Part shown: positions 3,375 to 59,150 of the stretch, one piece after another
Layout of the letters: every line of letters begins with the position of its first letter
Numbering within the stretch: position 1 is the first letter of the stretch
Source of the DNA: Ariolimax columbianus
Lineage: Eukaryota > Mollusca > Gastropoda > Stylommatophora > Arionidae
Assembly: GCA_036924085.1 (NCBI GenBank)
Contig: JAVGWX010000007.1
Span: 38,004,643 to 38,068,642, forward strand
Direction of reading: 5' to 3'
DNA length: 64,000 nt
Program-made: the position numbers and the translations under genes
The notes under the pieces: model-generated
Databases searched by the model: none
What the model was told of the DNA's origin: nothing
Seen by the model: the letters and a program-made list of their open reading frames with translations, nothing else

Positions 3375-3565
3375 CCACCATTACTGATGAGCTGAAAATG
3401 CGAACTGCAGGAAAGGACAGAATGCAAGACGGGCCACTTTGCACGTGTGCTCCAAGTGTGGTAGAGTTTGTCACGCTCAGATCGGACTGTACAGTCACCT
3501 GCGTTCACATCTAATTCACATAGACGGACGCTATCGTCATCTTCGCTTGACATGGGCAACTGTTA
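3375..3565 (+). pseudogene. LINE C-terminal C2H2-finger fragment
   Basis: Encodes 'CSKCGRVCHAQIGLYSHLRS', a C2H2-like motif of the type found at the extreme C-terminus of many RTE-like LINE ORFs. Neighbouring residues ('KGQNARRA') also fit a LINE end. No conserved host domain accompanies it. It could be an isolated zinc finger, but the setting of LINE tails makes a retroelement origin more likely. Confidence 0.5.
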
Positions 3566-7205: not shown

Positions 7206-7940
7206 ACGTCATTTTTCCTTCCCCGTGTAACAAGATAATAGTACAGATGCATATACTCAACACATGATTTCTTTCATTTCTAACAAAGTAAAATGATTGG
7301 ATGTTAAAATATGAGTCACGTTTAAACAGATTTGGCTATCCTTATTCTCTTCCTGGTTTCCATTCACATCTCCCATGTCCGTTTATTATATGCGCAATAT
7401 AGGAGAAACTATTCCATTATGGCTTGTCCTCGCTGTTATGACTCTTGATGATGATGTGTACTATTGCGGACAGACATTTCCTACGTGTATCTGTCCTATT
7501 TTGTGCCCCCATACCAGCAATCCCAAAGTGCGAATATACTGTGGTATGGACAAGTGGGCTTAGGACTAGCCCCACAGACAGGAATTGTCGCCAGTGCCTA
7601 GAGTGTTTGGCTTAGCTGATAAACGTCTGCAGGTCACGGGAACAAAACTGATAACCGGAGGTCTAGCACGCGCAACAGAAACAAGTAACAGCGTATTGTG
7701 CAATAGATGTGCAACAAAGCTGGGCCGTACAAGAAGATACACACGAGGGAACTGTAGTCACGCTAAATTTAATGTAAACACTTACATAATCAAGCAGGGA
7801 CTCGGTTTAACGTGGGACTTAATACGAACAACCTCGTTACGACCAAACAGTTTTCGCCAGGGATGGAGGACTGTTACTAACAAACAAATATAGACGACCA
7901 AGATGACAATTGTGAAAGCTGAAAGTCCACAAGGAGCGTA
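7206..7940. other. No recognisable feature
   Basis: Unique-looking sequence. The 102-residue open frame at 7585-7893 has no domain I recognise and no codon bias or conserved motif that would support it as a gene. Confidence 0.4.
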
Positions 7941-8590
7941 ATATTATTACAACTTCTTGTTGTTATCCCATAGCTGCTGAACATGCCTGCTCTTGACAGC
8001 CCAATGCCATTCTTATATAGATGCAGGTCTTCTTCAGTTCTTTCACTGCTCCGTACAGTGTGTTGGCAATTGTCGGCAGTGCTTATCGGAATCTTTTCCT
8101 CGTGTCCGCCAGCGCCTTGCACTCAACGAGTAGATGTCGGTATATTCAGGATGAGAGCGAAGTCTGGACAAGGACAGGTGCTGGGGATTGATGCGGTTAA
8201 ATTGGCTATTGACTGGTGTGTATTGTTAGGAACTGAAAGATGAAACTTTGATCTCTTCTATGTAGTTTATTTATGTCATCGTTACTTTTTGGCTGTGACA
8301 TTTCGCTAAATACACTGCGACCTGTTGTTCCCGTCGCTCGCCTGTTCATCCAGATTTCCCGAGTATTATTCTGAATAATTCGTTTTACTATGTGGTTACT
8401 GCAGGGTCTATCCAATTGTTGATAGGAGACTCCTGTTGTTGACAATCTGTCAGCTATGTCCAGGCATCCATTGCAAGATGACATCCCGTGAGATGTTATA
8501 ATATTGTATAATGACCGCCCTTCCCACCAAGAATATCTTTTAACATTTATGACATTAAGGGAAGGAGGAATTGGCGTTATGGTCATTTAT
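7940..8590 (-). pseudogene. Jockey-type LINE J4, C-terminal region
   Basis: Minus-strand open frame 8206-8586 encodes the stretch downstream of RNase H in jockey-like LINEs: 'REIWMNRRATGTTGRSVFSE', 'INKLHRRDQSFIFQ'. After a frameshift near 8200 it continues as 'HLLVECKALADTRKRF' and 'TLYGAVKELKKTC' down to about 7960. The histidine and cysteine of the knuckle are recognisable ('HLLVEC'), but the first Cys pair is disrupted. It is a diverged relative of J1, without RNase H or RT domains. Confidence 0.65.
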
Positions 8591-9195
8591 TTAATTGAGT
8601 GGGGGAGGGAAGGGACATAGATATACATACATACAGAGGACCTGTTAGAAAAGGAGGCGAGCGACAAGAAGGTGAGAATATATTGAAAACAGGAATACAT
8701 GAAATATATATGGTATGAGTTGACTGACGTCCTGAAATCAAACTAAAAATAAGACGAGGCTGCGGCGACAACGTGGATTAAAATAAAGTGTTTTAAAAAT
8801 AGGTACGATCAGATAGTACACTAAAACACACATGAAGCCTACGTTACTAGCAAACAGCCTTCATCAGGGACAAAGATCCACACACATATATGAGCTAGAA
8901 CTATTAGATCACATTACATATGGATTGGAGTTGACGTTTTTACCAACCCAAGATCTAGAACTTCGCTTCTTACACAAATATATCTATTTGACTGTTATAC
9001 GTTTCTTGGCAGATGTGCAGTACGGTAGGTTGCCATTATTTTCAGTACACTGAGAAGCGATCAAGAGAAACTAACACCCGTTTCCGCCAAACTGAACACG
9101 GCGTTTACAATTTAAAGGTAAATTGGGCTTTGTTAATCCTAGTGTTAACATAATCGCCTTTACTCCGTCCAGGTGAATATGGAAGGTAAACATGT
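8591..9195. other. No recognisable feature
   Basis: AT-rich stretch. The 8832-9053 open frame shows no known motif, and no repeat structure was noticed. Confidence 0.4.
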
Positions 9196-9224
9196 AAATT
9201 TCTTCTTCTTCTTCGTACGCTCAC

Positions 9225-9236
9225 AGACGTCGACTT
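9225..9236. repeat. Target-site duplication of J1 copy A, left
   Basis: 12-bp direct repeat 'agacgtcgactt', identical to 10306-10317. It marks the exact ends of the J1-A insertion into J1-B. Confidence 0.85.
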
Positions 9237-10305
9237 CTTCTTCTTCTTCTGCGTACACAGTCAGACAGTAACCATTATTTTTTCGAAAAAAGCGGCGGTC
9301 ATCCTGAGACTCTCGCCACTACCATAGAGCTTGTCTTGCAGTTCCACTGGCAATGGCCACATCTGCTCTCTCTGATCCCCGTATGTCGGGCAGTTCTGCA
9401 GCAGATGTTCAGTGGTCATTTTACCAGTACCGCACGGGCATTCGTCGGTACACCCTATCTTCAATTTGTTGAATAGGTGGTACCTCAGTCTATTGTGGCC
9501 AGTGCGAAGTCTGAAGACAACGACCTGCTCTCTTCGGTTCAACTGGTAATAGGCATCGTTTTTGGTGTAACCAGTATGTTCGGTTTCCCATTTGGTCATG
9601 TACCTGGCTTTGATAAGCCGTTTTGACTCTTCGTACGTCATACTGGTATCTGTTTGTGGTAGCCTTGCACCTTCTTTTGCCAGTCTGTCTGCCTCCTCGT
9701 TGCCTTGGATGTTGCAGTGTGACGGAACCCACTGTACCACTACCCTTTTTGGTGCGGACAGCTGGCACAGTTTGCAGAGTGCTGCTCTTAAGTCATTAAG
9801 CTCAGTGTTTTTCTGGCTTTTTAGCGCTGTGACTACGGCGAGAGCATCTGTCAGCAAGCCTATGTGGCTCTCATTTTCACTGTGTGTTGCCATTTCTTCC
9901 ACTGCCGCCCTCAGTGCCTCTGCCTCCGCTCTGAAATTGCTTGTGTACTTACCAGTAGCGAATGACAGTGTTATTTTTCTGCCATTTGGTAGGTTCAGGA
10001 ATGCTCCTGCCCCTCCGTTCTGTGTAGTGTTTGTTACAGAACCGTCGGTGTATGCATGGGTCCAGTCCATGCTTGGGTAGCTTTTCGTTATGAAGCTTAG
10101 GGTAGTGTCTCTCCTTTCTTTTTCGGTCTGGCAGTTTTTGTTTGCAATACCTGGTATATTTTCTACCACCTCTGGAAATATATCCTGCCTCCAAGTAGGT
10201 TTTCGTACAGTAGTGATGGGTTTTGGTGTTGTTAGTGCGTTTATGGGATCTTCGTGCATCTTTGCTTTGGCTATTTCTGCAAAGTTTCTCCGCTTTAGTT
10301 TCCCA
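9237..10305 (-). mobile_element. J1 LINE copy A, 5'-truncated, ORF open
   Basis: The best-preserved J1 copy. The frame is open from the 5' junction. With the first Met it gives 332 residues (10259 to 9261), and coding sense continues upstream of that Met, so the start is only the first ATG of a truncated ORF. RNase H carries all four acidic positions: Asp72 in 'YTDGS', Glu112/114 in 'AEAEAL', Asp138 in 'LLTDAL', Asp191 in 'NEEADRLA'. A C-x-C-x8-H-x4-C knuckle follows (Cys274, Cys276, His285, Cys290), then 'KLYGSGESL' and the stop. The 3' end is a GAA-repeat tail. RT and endonuclease domains are missing by 5' truncation, so it cannot move by itself, but the lack of stops suggests a recent insertion. 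RNase H in this position is usual for jockey/I-type LINEs. Confidence 0.9.
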
Positions 10306-49949: not shown

Positions 49950-51800
49950 TACAGCAAAAATAGACTTCGAAAAGAAACTTGCTCAGAGGATCAAGACTGA
50001 TAGTAAAAGCTTCTTCTCTTATGTTAGAAATAAACAAAGATCAAAGGACAAAGTAGGCCCCCTCATAGACAGCACAGGAAAAAAAATAAGTGAAAATAGG
50101 GAGGCAGCAAATCTACTCAATCACTACTTCTGCACAGTGTACACAAAAGAGGACTGCTCCAAGATCCCAGAGCCTGTAGATATATTTCAAAGAGACATGT
50201 CACATGGATACAGCAGGATTAGGATCAATCTGTTTTACAGAGGAAATGGTTTTAAAAAAATTGGAGGGGTTGAAAGTGGATAAATGTCCAGGTCAAGATG
50301 GTATTCATCCAAAATTGCTGTTTGAAATTAGAGACCAATTAGCAAAACCATTGGCTATATTATGTTCTCAATCACTAGCACAAGGGATTGTTCCACGGGA
50401 TTGGAAAGATGCGGGAGTGATCCCCTTATTCAAAAAGGGCAAAAAGGCAGATCCAGCAAACTATATACCTGTGAGCTTAACGAGCATAGTCTGTAAATTG
50501 TTAGAGTCAATAATCAAAGAAAACATTGTAATGCATTTAGACAAATTTAATCTAATTAGAAATAGTCAGCATGGGTTTACCAGAGGGAGATCATGCTTAA
50601 CAAATCTATTAGAATTCATGGAGGAGGTTACCAAAATGTTAGATAAAGGGGAGCCAGTGGATGTTATTTATCTGGATTTTGCAAAGGACTTTGATAGAGT
50701 ACCTCATCAAAGATTATTTCGAAAATTAAAATCACATGGAATAGGTGGGGAAGTTGCCAAATGGATTGAAAATTGGTAAACGGGAAGAAGGCAAAGGGTG
50801 GGTATAAATAAGGAGTACTCTGAGTGGTGTGAAGTGAAAAGTGGAGTGCCACAGGGCTCGGTTTTGGGACCAATTTTATTCTTGATATATATAAATGATT
50901 TGGACATAGGTATGGGATCAAATATTGCAAAATCTGCTGATGACACGAAACTATGCAGTAGTGTCTCATCTAAAGCAGAAGTAGATATATTGAGGTCGGA
51001 TTTAGATAAAATTTGAGAATGGTCTGTAATCTGGCAAATGGAGTTTAATGTAGATAAATGTACAGTCATCCACATGGGTAGATCCAATATGAAACATAAT
51101 TACAGAATGGGAGAGAACAATATTAGAAAGATAGATAAAGAAAGGGACTTAGGGGTTATAATAGATCATACATGTAAGGTGAGGGAGCAAGTTCAGGTAG
51201 CAGTAAAAAAGGCAAATGCAATGTTAGGGATGATAAAAAGAAATATTAAACATAGGAGCAAGGAAGTGATAGTCAAACTGTATAAAGCATTAGTTAGACC
51301 TAGATTGGAGTACTGTGTACAGGTGTGGAGTCCTTATCAGAGAGGGGATATAGACATGCTGGAGAGAATACAAAAAAGAGCGACAAAGCTGATAGTGGGA
51401 TTCCAGAATTACAGTTATGAAGAAAGATTAAAAAGAACTGGCCTTCAGTGTCTAGAAGAGAGAAGAATTCGTGGTGATTTAATACAGGTGTATAAGATGA
51501 TCAGAGGAATGGATAAAGTTGACTATAACAAGTTTTTTAAAGTACAACCACTAACAAGGACAAGAGGGCACAGCTACAAGTTGACTAAGGAGAGGTCCAG
51601 ATTAGATATTAGGAAGTATTTTTTTAGCCAGAGAGTAGTGAATGCTTGGAATGCATTGCCAAGTGAGGTGGTGGAGGCTGGGACGGTCAATGCATTTAAG
51701 AACAGATTGGATGCGTACAGCTTCTAGAGGAAGGTGTTGTAAATGGAACTGGTTGTATACAGACTCTGCAGAGTCTTCTAATAATATTAATAATATTATC
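49950..51800 (+). pseudogene. CR1/L2-like LINE, nearly intact RT, 5'-truncated
   Basis: Starts in the endonuclease-RT linker ('KIDFEKKLAQRIKTDSKSFF'), with a frameshift at about 50200. One frame then runs from 50204 to 51727, broken only by two stops: TAA at 50777 (for Leu in 'NWLTGR') and TGA at 51016 (for Arg). RT motifs: 'PGQDGIHPKLLFEI', 'QHGFTRGRSCLTNLL', motif A 'VIYLDFAKDFDRVPHQ', motif B '[20 protein letters not shown]', motif C 'SADDTKLCS' (Phe to Ser before the catalytic Asp pair). The C-terminus 'YSYEERLKRTGLQCLEERRI' to 'RLDAYSF' is uninterrupted (51038-51727). The 3' tail is an ATT-type repeat at 51783-51800. A younger copy than 41340-43610, in the opposite orientation. Confidence 0.92.
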
Positions 51801-53345: not shown

Positions 53346-53445
53346 TTCTAAGAAATATAGAAATGCAATTGTTCCTCCCCACAACGTTTGTATTTTTGAT
53401 CGTCTTCGTGAGCACTGCTCATGGCATCCCATTTTATTTGGATTC

Positions 53446-54085
53446 ATCTTCCTCTGTTCTTCGCCAAATGTTCTCTGATTTCCGTACCAATGGTTCTTCA
53501 CCAAAAGTTTTATAATGTCATCTTCCTCTGTTCTTCCCCAAATGTTCTATAATTTCACCTTCCTCTGTTCTTCCCCAAAAGTTCTATAATTTCACCTTCC
53601 TCTGTTCTTCACCAAAAGTTTTATAATGTCATCTTCCTCTGTTCTTCCCCAAATGTTCTATAATTTCATCTTCCTGTTCTTCACCAAAAGTTCTATAATG
53701 TCATCTTCCTCTGTGCTTCCCCAAATGTTCTATAATTTCACCTTCCTCTGTTCTTCCCCAAAAGTTCTATAATTTCACCTTCCTCTGTTCTTCACCAAAA
53801 GTTCTATAATTTCACCTTCCTCTGTTCTTCCCCAAAAGTTCTATAATGTAATCTCCATCTGTTCTTCACCAAAAGTTATATAATTTCACCTTCCTCTGTT
53901 CTTCCTCAAAAGTTCTATAATTTCACCTTCCTTTGTTTTTCCCCAAATGTTCTATAATTTCACCTTCCTCTGTTCTTCCCCAAAAGTTATATAATTTACC
54001 TTCCTCTGTTCTTCACCAAAAGTTCTATAATTTCACCTTCCTCTGTTCTTCACCAAAAGTTCTCTGATTTCTTCTGCCACTGTTC
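53446..54085. repeat. 37-bp minisatellite, about 16 copies
   Basis: Units of 'ttctataatttcaccttcct' plus 'ctgttcttccccaaaag' (37 bp), with a subfamily carrying 'gttctataatgtcatcttcc'. No spacers, pyrimidine-rich on the plus strand. Confidence 0.95.
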
Positions 54086-54111
54086 TTTAGCCAAACAAAA
54101 AACAAAACAAA

Positions 54112-54384: not shown

Positions 54385-54499
54385 TTTCCTCTCTCAATCC
54401 TTCTGAGACATCTTATAATGAGGTCATCGTTTCCATCTATCAATCATTCTGATATCTTATAATGAGGGACGTTAACGTTTTTTTCTCTCAATCGTTCTG
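54385..54499. repeat. About 44-bp tandem repeat, left half of a split array
   Basis: Units built on 'ctctcaatccttctga' and 'atcttataatgagg'. The array continues at 56351-56395 on the far side of the chimeric insertion. The third unit is split between the two sides. Confidence 0.7.
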
Positions 54500-54511
54500 A
54501 CATTTTGAAAT
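54500..54511. repeat. Target-site duplication of the chimera, left
   Basis: 12-bp 'acattttgaaat', identical to 56339-56350. It touches the GAA tail of the J1 part. Confidence 0.88.
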
Positions 54512-54961
54512 CTTCTTCTTCTTCTTTTTCTTCGTACGCTGTCAGACGTCAACCTGTATTTTTTCGAAAAAAGCAGCGGTCATCATGAGGCTGTCGACAC
54601 TGCCATAGAGCTTGTCTAGTGTTGCCACTGGTGATGGCCACATGTGCTTTCTCTGATCCTCGTATGTCGGGCAGTTTTGCAGCAAATGTTCAGCGGTCAT
54701 TTTCCCGGTACCACACATGCATTCATCAGTGCCATCTATCTTCAATTTATTGAATAGGTGGTACCTCAGTCTATTGTGGCCTGTGCGGAGTCTGAAGACC
54801 ACGACCTGCTCTCTTCTGTTCAACTGGTAATAGGCATCGTTTTTTGTGTAGCCAGCATGTTCTGTTTCCCATTTGGTCATGTATCTAGCTCTAATAAGCC
54901 TTTTTGACTCTTCGTATGTCACACTAGGATCTGGTTGTGGTACTCTTGCACCTTCTTTTGC
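54512..54961 (-). mobile_element. J1 LINE 3' end (LINE part of the chimera)
   Basis: Minus-strand J1 terminus with a 126-residue open frame (54922-54542): 'MTYEESKRLIRARYMTKWET', 'VVVFRLRTGHNRLRYHL', knuckle 'CMCGTGKMTAEHLLQNC' (intact C-x-C-x8-H-x4-C), 'KLYGSVDSL', 'FFEKIQVDV' and stop. Tail 'agcgtacgaagaaaaagaag' runs to the target-site duplication. J1 sequence stops at about 54961 inside the 'KEGAR' region, where 18S rRNA begins without a gap. Confidence 0.92.
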
Positions 54962-55721
54962 TGCTCAGCGAAGAGCACCCGCGGGAGAGAGCCGGCAGAC
55001 GGTAGGGCAGGAGACAACGGGCAGTGAACTGGCGCGAGCCGGACCGCCCGCCTGCGCCTGAGATCCAACTACGAGCTTTTAACTGCAACAACTTTAATAT
55101 ACGCTATTGGAGCTGGAATTACCGCGGCTGCTGGCACCAGACTTGCCCTCCAATAGATCCTCGTTAAAGGGTTTAAAGTGTACTCATTCCAATTACGAGG
55201 CCTCGAAAGAGTCCCGTATTGTTATTTTTCGTCACTACCTCCCCGTGCCGGGAGTGGGTAAGTTGCGCGCCTGCTGGCTTCCTTGGACGTGGTAGCCGTT
55301 TCTCATGCTCCCTCTCCGGAATCGAACCCTGATTCCCCGTTACCCGTTACAAACATGGTAGGCATGTCACGTACCATCGACATTTGATAGGGCAGACATT
55401 TGAAAGATGCGTCGCCGGCACACGAAGCCATGCGATCAGCACAAAGTTATCCAGTCACCAGTGGGGACGCCGCAACCCCGCGAGGGGAAACGACGATTGG
55501 TTTTGAACTAATAAAAGCGCTCTTTCCGTGAGGGTCGGAGCTTGGTAAGCATGTATTAACTCTAGAATTGACACAGTTATCCAAGTAGGATCGTGTCATC
55601 TAAGGAACCTCGACTGATTTAATGAGCCATTCGCGGTTTCACCATGAGACAGTGTGAACTTAGACATGTATGGCCTAATCTTTGAGACAAGCATATGACT
55701 ACTGGCAGGATCAACCAGATA
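54962..55721 (-). pseudogene. 18S rRNA 5' third, retroposed
   Basis: The minus strand begins with the 18S 5' end ('tatctggttgatcctgccag' from 55721) and runs through helix and V2/V3 landmarks such as 'attccagctccaatagcgta' and 'gttgcagttaaaagctcgta' into V4, stopping after about 760 nt at 'ttcgctgagcagc'. A complete 18S is about 1.8 kb, so two thirds are missing. Several normally invariant positions differ, for example 'tctagagttaatacatgc' for the usual 'gagctaatacatgc', and 'gattaggccatacatg' near the start. It is therefore a pseudogene and not an active rDNA unit. The V4 sequence is GC-rich, as in molluscs. Confidence 0.95.
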
Positions 55722-56338
55722 TCTGTCGGAGATGGACGAACCACACACACCGGTCGGCGATGGATGGATGTGTAAAAAGCCTCACCAGGACGGCCGCAGG
55801 GACCGACTGTAGGACGGACGGTTGTTCTGTCCCTCACTCCGTCGACCTAGGACCGCCTGGCAGGGGCCCGTACACACACCAACTGACCGACCGACCGGGC
55901 TCGCTCGGGGAGTGATGGCAGCGCTCTGTGCAGAACGGATCCCAACGGCCCCGGCGATGATTTTCACTCGGACTGGAGACGATTTTTGCCTGCCGGCCTG
56001 CCCTTCTCCGACCGGTTGGTCGGGCGAGGACAGGGCCTTTAGGCACGATTCCTGCTTTCCATTTGCCGATCCAAAGCTCATTGCGAGAGAAGGACCACAA
56101 GCGAGACGAACTGTCGAGATTGGCTTTACGCGCTAGCCTTCGACGAACCACACGGACTGACAAAGCTTCTCGATACGGACTACAGTAACACACCATTACC
56201 AGCGGTAGGACTCCACCAAATTGGTCCTGCTACAGTGCCGGGGGCAAGCCCGCGCTCTCACTCCGCCTGGCGGGACTGAGATCGCTATACGAACACTGGA
56301 TGCGAGTCAATCGAGCCACCGAGAGACCAGCCCCAGAT
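55722..56338 (-). other. Pre-rRNA 5' external transcribed spacer, retroposed
   Basis: 617 bp of GC-rich sequence directly upstream of the 18S 5' end on the same strand, contrasting with the AT-rich surroundings. Its position identifies it as 5' ETS. It ends precisely at the right-hand 12-bp duplication, with 'atctggggctgg' as the first bases of the copy. If copying reached the RNA 5' end, this marks the RNA polymerase I start. The many open frames here are GC-rich noise. Confidence 0.8.
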
Positions 56339-56350
56339 ACATTTTGAAAT
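56339..56350. repeat. Target-site duplication of the chimera, right
   Basis: Partner of 54500-54511, identical over 12 bp. The split minisatellite continues immediately beyond it. Confidence 0.88.
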
Positions 56351-56464
56351 GAATGCCTCGCTTCCATCTCTCAGTCCTTCTGATATCTTATAATGGATAT
56401 GTAGGATATTTTGAAGTTTATCAATCTGCCGCGTGTATCCACATTTGACAAGTTTTAAAATCAT

Positions 56465-57619: not shown

Positions 57620-59150
57620 ATTGAGACGAGTGGTGTTAATAGTCAAACATAGGTCATTACCAACCCTTCCTGAGACGAGTGGTGTTTATAGTCAAACATA
57701 GGTCATTACCAACCCTTCCTGAGACGAGTGGTGTTTATAGTCAAACATAGGTCATTTTCAACCCTTCCTGAGACGAGTGGTGTTTATAGTCAAACATAGG
57801 TCATTACCAACCCTTCCTGAGACGAGTAGTGTTTATAGTCAAACATAGGTCATTACCAATCCACCAACCCATCCTGAGACGGAATGTGTTTATAGTCAAA
57901 CATAGGTCATTACCAACCCTTCCTGAGACGAGTGGTGTTTATAGTCAAACATAGGTCATTACCAATCCACCAACCCATCCTGAGAAGACAGAACATATTT
58001 TGCAGTCCTGTCCACTGTATACCGACAAAAGAAGTAGCATTTGACAACAGCCAGTGTCCTTCCACGAGAAGCTGTACGGAAGCGTACAGAGCCTTGAGTC
58101 GACTGCTGCCTTCGTTAGAGTCATTGAAGTTGAGGTCTGAAGATGAACGAGAAAGAAGAAGAAGAAACATAGTTCCTTGCTAACCCACCAACCCATCCTG
58201 AGATGATTTGTGTTTAGAGTCAAACATAGGTCCTTGCTAACCCCTCCTGTGACGGGTGGTGTTTAGAGTCAAACATAGGTCCTTGCTAACCCCTCCTGAG
58301 ACGGGTGGTGTTTAGAGTCAAACATAGGTCCTTGCTAACCCCTCCTGAGACAGGTGGTGTTTAGAGTCAAACATAGGTCCTTGCTAACCCACCAATCCAT
58401 CCTGAGACGGGTGGTGTTTAGAGTCAAACATAGGTCCTTGCCAACCCACCAACCGCCCCCCCCCCCTTTCCTGTGACGGGTGGTGTTTAGAGTCAAACAT
58501 AGGTCCTTGCAAACTCACCAACCCCTCATGAGACGGGTGGTGTTTAGAGTCAAACATAGGTCCTTGCCAACCCACCAACCCCCCCCCCCCCCTCCCCCAT
58601 TCCTGTGACGGGTGGTGTTTAGAATCAAACATAGGTTCCTGCTAACCCATCATGTGACGAGTGGTGTTTAGAGTCAAACATAGGTCCTTGCTAACCCCTC
58701 CTGAGACGGGTGGTGTTTAGAGTCAAACATAGGTCCTTGCTAACCCCTCCTGAGACAGGTGGTGTTTAGAGTCAAACATAGGTCCTTGCTAACCCACCAA
58801 TCCATCCTGAGACGGGTGGTGTTTAGAGTCAAACATAGGTCCTTGCCAACCCACCAACCGCCCCCCCCCCCTTTCCTGTGACGGGTGGTGTTTAGAGTCA
58901 AACATAGGTCCTTGCAAACTCACCAACCCCTCATGAGACGGGTGGTGTTTAGAGTCAAACATAGGTCCTTGCCAACCCACCAACCCCCCCCCCCCCTCCC
59001 CCATTCCTGTGACGGGTGGTGTTTAGAATCAAACATAGGTTCCTGCTAACCCATCATGTGACGAGTGGTGTTTAGAGTCAAACATAGGTCCTTGCTAACC
59101 CATCCTGTGACAGGTGGTGTTTAGAGTCAAACACGGATCCTCGCAACTTA
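57620..59150. repeat. 49-bp minisatellite with ~405-bp higher-order duplication
   Basis: Units of 'gagacgagtggtgtttatag' plus 'tcaaacataggtcattacca' and 'acccttcct' (49 bp) at 57.6-58.0 kb change to a 'gtgtttagagtc'/'ggtccttgctaacccctcct' subtype from 58.2 kb on. Within the second block a stretch of about 405 bp (roughly 58262-58666) is repeated almost exactly at 58667-59070, including two poly-C interruptions. A J2 tail interrupts the array at about 57985-58170. The glycine/lysine-rich minus-strand frames are repeat translations. Confidence 0.93.
57985..58170 (+). mobile_element. J2 LINE tail inside the 49-bp array
   Basis: Readable in pieces as 'LQSCPLYTDKRS'-like, 'FHEKLYGSVQSLESTAAFV' and 'VIEVEV', with 3' end 'ctgaagatgaacgagaaag' and a GAA tail. 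It matches 25740-26245. Array units on both sides show it inserted into the minisatellite. Confidence 0.72.

Follow-up and report, generated by a model that had tools for sequence, protein, structure and literature searches.

Within the window, by which we mean the whole analyzed stretch of 64,000 nucleotides of Ariolimax columbianus DNA, a chimeric block of LINE and rRNA sequence lies between two identical 12-bp repeats, and all LINE and rRNA parts of the block are read on the minus strand. In this direction, the order is the repeat copy at the 5′ end of the element (56339..56350), a type-A pre-rRNA 5′ external transcribed spacer (ETS) of 617 nt that begins at a putative Pol I start (55722..56338), 18S rRNA from nt 1 to about 760 (54963..55721, the junction end being uncertain by 1–3 nt), the 18S/J1 junction (54961..54964), the 3′ ~450 nt of the LINE J1 with the end of ORF2 past RNase H and then a (GAA)n-type tail (54512..54961), and the repeat copy adjoining the J1 tail (54500..54511). 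A preliminary description of the locus had proposed just such a succession of a J1 3′ end, ~760 nt of 18S and 5′ ETS in one orientation, and this was borne out. The 18S part is matched by RF01960 in cmscan (model 4–605, 540 bits, at 55718–55096; model 1–911 with permissive filters), the J1 part by other J1 copies in the window and the genome, and the ETS aligns to two rDNA loci, L035 and L036, and to 20 further loci that carry related sequence. The 18S seems gastropod-like in appearance.

The flanks of the block belong to a 44-bp minisatellite, of which the left part (54385..54499) and the right part (56351..56395) are separated by the block. When the flanks are joined via one copy of the 12-mer ACATTTTGAAAT, Tandem Repeats Finder (TRF) reports a 44-bp unit repeated 3.8 times (score 150), while it finds no tandem array in either half taken separately. 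The split of a ~44-bp minisatellite had been recognized before, and since the joined flanks restore one such array, the block represents a single insertion with a target site duplication (TSD). Within the window, the 12-mer occurs at the two boundaries only, 54500 and 56339, and it differs from the minisatellite consensus, so that the identity of the two, which had been named as a possible refutation, does not apply. The TSD is 11–12 bp long, as one base may be part of the J1 tail. Its boundaries are set independently by the ETS start and by the J1 tail, and an exact match of this length would therefore hardly be due to chance. These data support one TPRT-type insertion of a J1/rRNA chimera. 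As in template-jump chimeras of the U6/L1 type, the foreign RNA copy lies on the 5′ side of the LINE 3′ part in the same sense, and one TSD encloses the whole chimera. The window is rich in tandem arrays, such as a large minisatellite near the block (53443–54087, 37 bp × 17.5) and arrays of 49–57 bp with a 405-bp higher-order unit (57622–59133), and two ORFs of 191 and 229 amino acids at 50204–51727 appear to resemble parts of another non-LTR reverse transcriptase.

Six further J1 copies of at least 178 bp and with 80–93% identity are present in the window, together with shorter pieces, and Pfam RNase_H was found in a longer copy at 9264–10259. J1 extends beyond the break point of the block in all five window copies that were aligned with their upstream flank, and the break in the block is thus real. 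It lies at ~54961–54964, where the 18S side ends with ..CGCTGAGC and the J1 side starts with GCAAAAG.., and one base between them matches neither. A 27-mer across this junction has a single occurrence at up to 3 mismatches in the 2.29-Gb genome. The junction therefore does not represent a non-autonomous SIDE or an rRNA-headed SINE, in which an interior-deleted form has multiplied as such. Splicing as the source of the junction is not favored either: 18S offers a GT after GAGC, but there is no J1 AG that would give the observed bases.

An exact 18S 3′-end pattern was found at 32 places of the genome, including arrays on contigs C50 and C222, with a spacing of 12,287 bp on C222. The ETS and 18S of two units (L035 and L036, 98.9% alike) served as rDNA reference. 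The 617-nt ETS of the window is homologous to the 635-nt ETS of the assembled rDNA and starts at the same first base, in line with the earlier claim that the copy reaches the 5′ end of the pre-rRNA. This start coincides with the position ..TATATT|ATCTGGGG.. of the rDNA and, judged by sequence, is probably the Pol I start. As the heads begin at the first base of the ETS and contain no IGS, an RNA template is favored. The alignment to the species' own rDNA also showed that the window head differs from current rDNA by 20.7% in the ETS (600 sites) and by 1.7% in 18S (752 sites), and no near-identical A-type rDNA was found among the 40 places that were scored as the best of 10,102 candidates (best identity 95%).

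These 40 places come from a search of the block against its own assembly (2.29 Gb in 401 contigs), and they reveal that the rRNA head is not confined to the window. Among them are at least 39 other leader matches on many chromosomes with 87–95% identity, a count of headed copies that is a lower bound and, as sampling was by the best match to the head, biased toward complete heads. The ETS start (query 1832–1851) is the end of the match in 28 of the 39 listed leader matches, and the end lies elsewhere in 11. Twenty of the 39 were fetched with ~7.5 kb of downstream sequence. All 20 contain ETS and 18S, and 19 have J1 downstream in sense; this part reads N in L017. In six loci with both ends in place (L009, L018, L020, L021, L023, and L028), the J1 3′ end follows 4.6–5.7 kb after the 18S stretch that is shared with the window. 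The head starts at ATCTGGGG in 14 of the 20 loci, two of these with one or two changes, and within about 3 nt of it in 4 further loci (18/20 in total), with L010 and L019 being shorter. A scripted search in 12 loci detected exact TSDs of 9–13 bp at the ETS start and the tail in 7, repeats of 7 nt only in L019 and L027, and no TSD at the tail tested in L021, L024, and L025. The 5′ flanks of the 20 loci are unrelated, and the TSDs differ between loci. The genome contains 15,561 copies of a 22-mer from the J1 3′ end and none of the reversed control. The rRNA head thus belongs to a dispersed family, and the block in the window, which had been taken for an isolated chimera, is no isolated event, with only its exact junction being private. 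A one-off chimera is ruled out for the head, which dozens of loci share, and is retained for the exact junction. Judged by the 20 fetched loci, which lie at diverse sites and not at a fixed position in rDNA, J1 also does not behave as an rDNA-specific LINE of the R1/R2/R8 kind. Some loci have additional pieces beside the head: L013 contains, within the same 9.7-kb locus, a further ETS-18S head that is read from the opposite strand (7873–9240), L039 an inverted piece of 18S 961–924 (2156–2193), and C13:43682993–43683233 a piece of the J1 3′ end that is read from the other strand, the latter two as twin priming might leave them.

A misjoining of rDNA and LINE sequence during assembly would be another reading of the block. 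We regard such an artefact as very improbable, as similar heads are present on many chromosomes, where they have separate TSDs; moreover, the TSD and the restored minisatellite speak against it, and the distance of the head from current rDNA in both ETS and 18S shows that no current rDNA was misjoined.

J1 is a ~7-kb LINE with endonuclease, reverse transcriptase and RNase H and a (GAA)n tail. In L028, the Pfam domains Exo_endo_phos_2, RVT_1, and RNase_H were matched in separate pieces, and by this domain content J1 is probably of the I/Jockey type. Its leader is arranged as ETS from the first base, 18S to ~1240, an older, degenerate mosaic that closes with the 28S 3′ end, and then the J1 body. 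At 18S ~1240, the leader enters a degenerate segment corresponding to 18S ~1176–1293, which contains a deletion that other leaders have as well. It is followed by a ~40-nt piece that we take to be 28S-like, a second ETS 1–50, a second 18S-like piece, and the 28S 3′ end. In agreement with this, cmscan found SSU and then LSU up to model position 3399 of 3401 in all five family leaders scanned, and LSU up to the same position in four of five other loci, with L030 ending before that. The impression that the leader stops at 18S ~760 in all copies was an artefact of the query end, as 18S runs beyond the junction point of the window in 19 of the 20 fetched loci; L025 has a deletion at this point, and its 18S resumes at 866. 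L021 has a weak match to the HDV-like ribozyme drz-agam-1 on the minus strand (8286–8366; 34.4 bits at a cut-off of 37). Beside the long element, there is a short internally deleted J1 that consists of the rRNA head, the leader, ~589 nt of the 5′ body, and the tail. L013, L014, L018, L022, L024, and L038 share its one internal joint to within a base, and TSDs were seen by eye in five of these six, L022 being without a clear one. The ETS of this short form is A-type in five loci and near-current in L038, which looks like a head renewal on this form as well.

How J1 came to its heads can be approached through their variety. At the first six of the 32 18S 3′-end places, which were examined, a J1 leader or body follows downstream in sense in all six. 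Five of these six have 18S-ITS1 joined to the J1 leader, each at a point of its own: in four copies, the joint follows 131, ~201, ~273, or ~503 nt of ITS1, and in the fifth, it follows the complete ITS1 (645 nt) and a further 27 nt that we presume to be 5.8S. The rDNA-like stretches of these five copies are 93.2–99.7% like current rDNA, and their ages differ, as the ITS1 sequences of L031 and L030 are only 77% alike. In L030, the order is 5.8S, 18S 1373–1396, LSU 959–1387, and J1. In L032, a stretch of 18S 1687–1841, reaching to 8 nt before the 18S end, lies directly upstream of the ETS start; the head of this copy is 99% like current rDNA and is joined to J1 at the 18S-like segment. L032 thus apparently experienced a further jump from the 5′ end of the pre-rRNA to near the 18S 3′ end, and the back-steps in L030 and L032 fit end-to-end template jumps. 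L038, L040, and L041 have an ETS that is 9–11% from current rDNA, and in all three of these near-current loci, which were followed downstream, J1 is joined at the 18S-like segment.

A maximum likelihood tree, built from the ETS only of 28 sequences and unrooted, resolves these heads as a ladder. It leads from family A (17 loci and the window) via L027 (support 88), L026 (100), and L028 (100) over a branch of 0.110 (100) to L039/L040, L038/L041 (95), L032 (100), and the rDNA (97). The 18S tree of the same 28 sequences has internal branches below 0.003 and none of the ladder steps. The ETS ladder toward current rDNA together with a flat 18S fits heads that have been sampled from functional rDNA at different times, whereas in a head that decays as LINE junk, ETS and 18S are expected to diverge alike. 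The decay of 18S increases with the distance in ETS (Spearman 0.70, n = 26), a weak support with 18 of these in one group. The ladder with the flat 18S and the five different ITS1/5.8S joints disfavor vertical inheritance of one captured head. Our data support that joints between J1 and unprocessed pre-rRNA, be it ETS or ITS1, were formed several times in this genome, and most likely J1 took on rRNA heads repeatedly by template jumping onto pre-rRNA. The family-A loci share one mosaic, and most copies therefore descend from few masters, without jumps of their own.

A different origin of the heads would be a residence of J1 copies, 5′-truncated or not, in rDNA units. If such copies were co-transcribed from the Pol I start, the heads would be 5′ transductions of pre-rRNA, daughters would carry ETS-18S or ETS-18S-ITS1 up to the landing site of the resident copy, and the concerted evolution of the array would keep the heads fresh. 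The fixed start and the order ETS-18S-ITS1 follow readily from this, as do the constancy of 18S alongside the ETS ladder and the variety of ITS1 joints. It is hard, however, to derive from it the arrangement of 5.8S, 18S, and an internal LSU piece in L030, the direct passage from the 18S end to the ETS start in L032, or the use of the same old 18S-like segment as joint in the A-type leaders, in L038, L040, and L041, and in L032. Also, there is no J1 in the two rDNA stretches that were read, which comprise ETS and 18S of one unit each and thus a small part of the arrays. We therefore consider this origin unlikely.

Returning to template jumping onto pre-rRNA, the origin of the head of the window copy itself has to be discussed separately. 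Of the 103 diagnostic ETS substitutions that could be scored, the window head agrees with the family at 100 and with current rDNA at 1, and it differs from both at 2; at all 10 sites that separate A from L026–L028, it has the A state. Its placement by subfamily sites within family A is weak, with a best grouping support of 66, and 18S site 743 was discarded as a family marker because its states are mixed among leaders. The second template of the window copy could have been an A-era pre-rRNA or the RNA of an already headed J1, and a later deletion is also possible. In the first case, which is a variant of our preferred explanation, reverse transcription would have passed from J1 RNA straight onto A-era nucleolar pre-rRNA, as the preliminary description had it. 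The private junction and the non-homologous joints of J1 and pre-rRNA in five other loci are in favor of this. The family-A states at 100/103 and 10/10 sites are what a headed J1 RNA would give, although the A-era pre-rRNA presumably matches family A at those sites as well. We see the direct jump as a real possibility, albeit one that probably does not apply. A deletion would mean that a longer J1 with an A-type head was inserted and that ~5–6 kb of its DNA were lost afterwards. The ends, the TSD, and the head correspond to family A, the junction is private, and it has almost no homology, as in end joining; nothing speaks directly against such a loss, and a jump at the time of insertion predicts the same product. 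We nevertheless regard the deletion as rather improbable. The proposal of a TPRT jump from J1 RNA to nucleolar pre-rRNA was thus right in kind and holds with respect to the TPRT-type insertion of a chimera, and it may also be correct for the window copy, the template of which was perhaps a headed J1 RNA instead.

Taken together, we think it probable that the block is a TPRT-type insertion from an rRNA-headed J1 lineage whose heads have been renewed by reverse transcriptase switching to pre-rRNA. The J1 reverse transcriptase would switch from J1 RNA to pre-rRNA and thereby create heads, which would have been renewed several times. Some switches may have taken place in the leader's old 18S-like segment, possibly guided by homology, and others onto unrelated points in ITS1 or 5.8S. 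The new template would then be copied upstream, in many copies to its 5′ end. For the window copy, it can be envisaged that the enzyme left J1 after only ~450 nt and entered an A-type ETS-18S template at 18S nt ~760, from where synthesis would have reached the ETS start. A more speculative extension, which we consider doubtful, is that J1 takes its 5′ end in trans: the degenerate 18S segment of the leader would be a landing pad, from which the cDNA switches to nascent pre-rRNA and finishes at the Pol I start.

Several known systems resemble parts of this picture. In Drosophila, R2 elements have been described that bear U12 snRNA or tRNA at the 5′ end, along with SIDEs of R2 and R2/R1, and they show that a LINE reverse transcriptase can jump in vivo to a cellular RNA and so generate a 5′ extension; the authors suggest that one jump founded a subfamily, and internally deleted forms exist there as well (PMC3414825). 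J1 differs from R2 in being dispersed and in encoding an APE-type endonuclease domain, and what it captures is pre-rRNA with ETS and ITS1, in captures that recur and replace one another. The chimeras of mammalian L1 are bipartite insertions with TSDs as well, in which an RNA copy precedes a truncated LINE on its 5′ side and, in the case of 28S, mostly has the sense orientation; 18 28S/L1 chimeras were reported, and the text describes them as single insertions with a short rRNA piece (28S median 269 nt) and contains none of the terms 18S, 45S, or external transcribed (PMC13174262). The J1 head, by contrast, is inherited by an amplified LINE family. In the LINE/SINE/WEIRD chimeras of Magnaporthe, one abundant non-coding RNA was repeatedly fused to LINE ends with direct repeats, and double template switches indicate more than one jump in succession, but the RNA is not rRNA, and a renewal of LINE leaders is absent from the abstract (PMC2104539). 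The biology of the rDNA-specific LINEs R1, R2, and R8 is tied to rRNA, and R2 is co-transcribed with it (PMC2718515, PMC5035012). The J1 copies, in contrast, are found at diverse sites outside the rDNA, and their TSDs vary. SINEs with 5S or 28S rRNA heads combine an rRNA-derived head with a LINE-derived tail, and the short J1 form has the same general build. The J1 head, however, includes the ETS together with roughly two thirds of 18S, and it is also present on the autonomous LINE. Such SINEs are named in the L1 chimera study (PMC13174262), and related literature also includes PMC7650587, PMC11203168, and PMC13188248. Among the papers listed in a search of titles and abstracts, which covered a minor share of the subscription literature, none reports a LINE with ETS/18S heads, let alone with heads that are inherited and renewed.

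As a rule, a template-jump chimera is an accident that ends with the copy concerned. J1, a successful autonomous LINE, has incorporated rRNA heads and appears to have exchanged them for newer ones several times, an indication of recurrent capture of pre-rRNA rather than of a rare error. The presence of ETS and ITS1 implies an unprocessed template, and whether LINE reverse transcription meets nascent pre-rRNA now becomes testable, as do the steering of template switching by leader homology and the transcription of headed copies. The heads mark the likely Pol I start of the species to the base, and they retain earlier versions of the ETS from an rDNA that is different today; if the proposed renewal is true, they constitute a dated fossil record of the host ETS. 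If the 5′ end of J1 were indeed taken in trans, the LINE would not need to supply a complete 5′ end itself, and should the captured start also drive the transcription of headed copies, the life cycle of J1 would be a Pol I or nucleolar one outside the rDNA.
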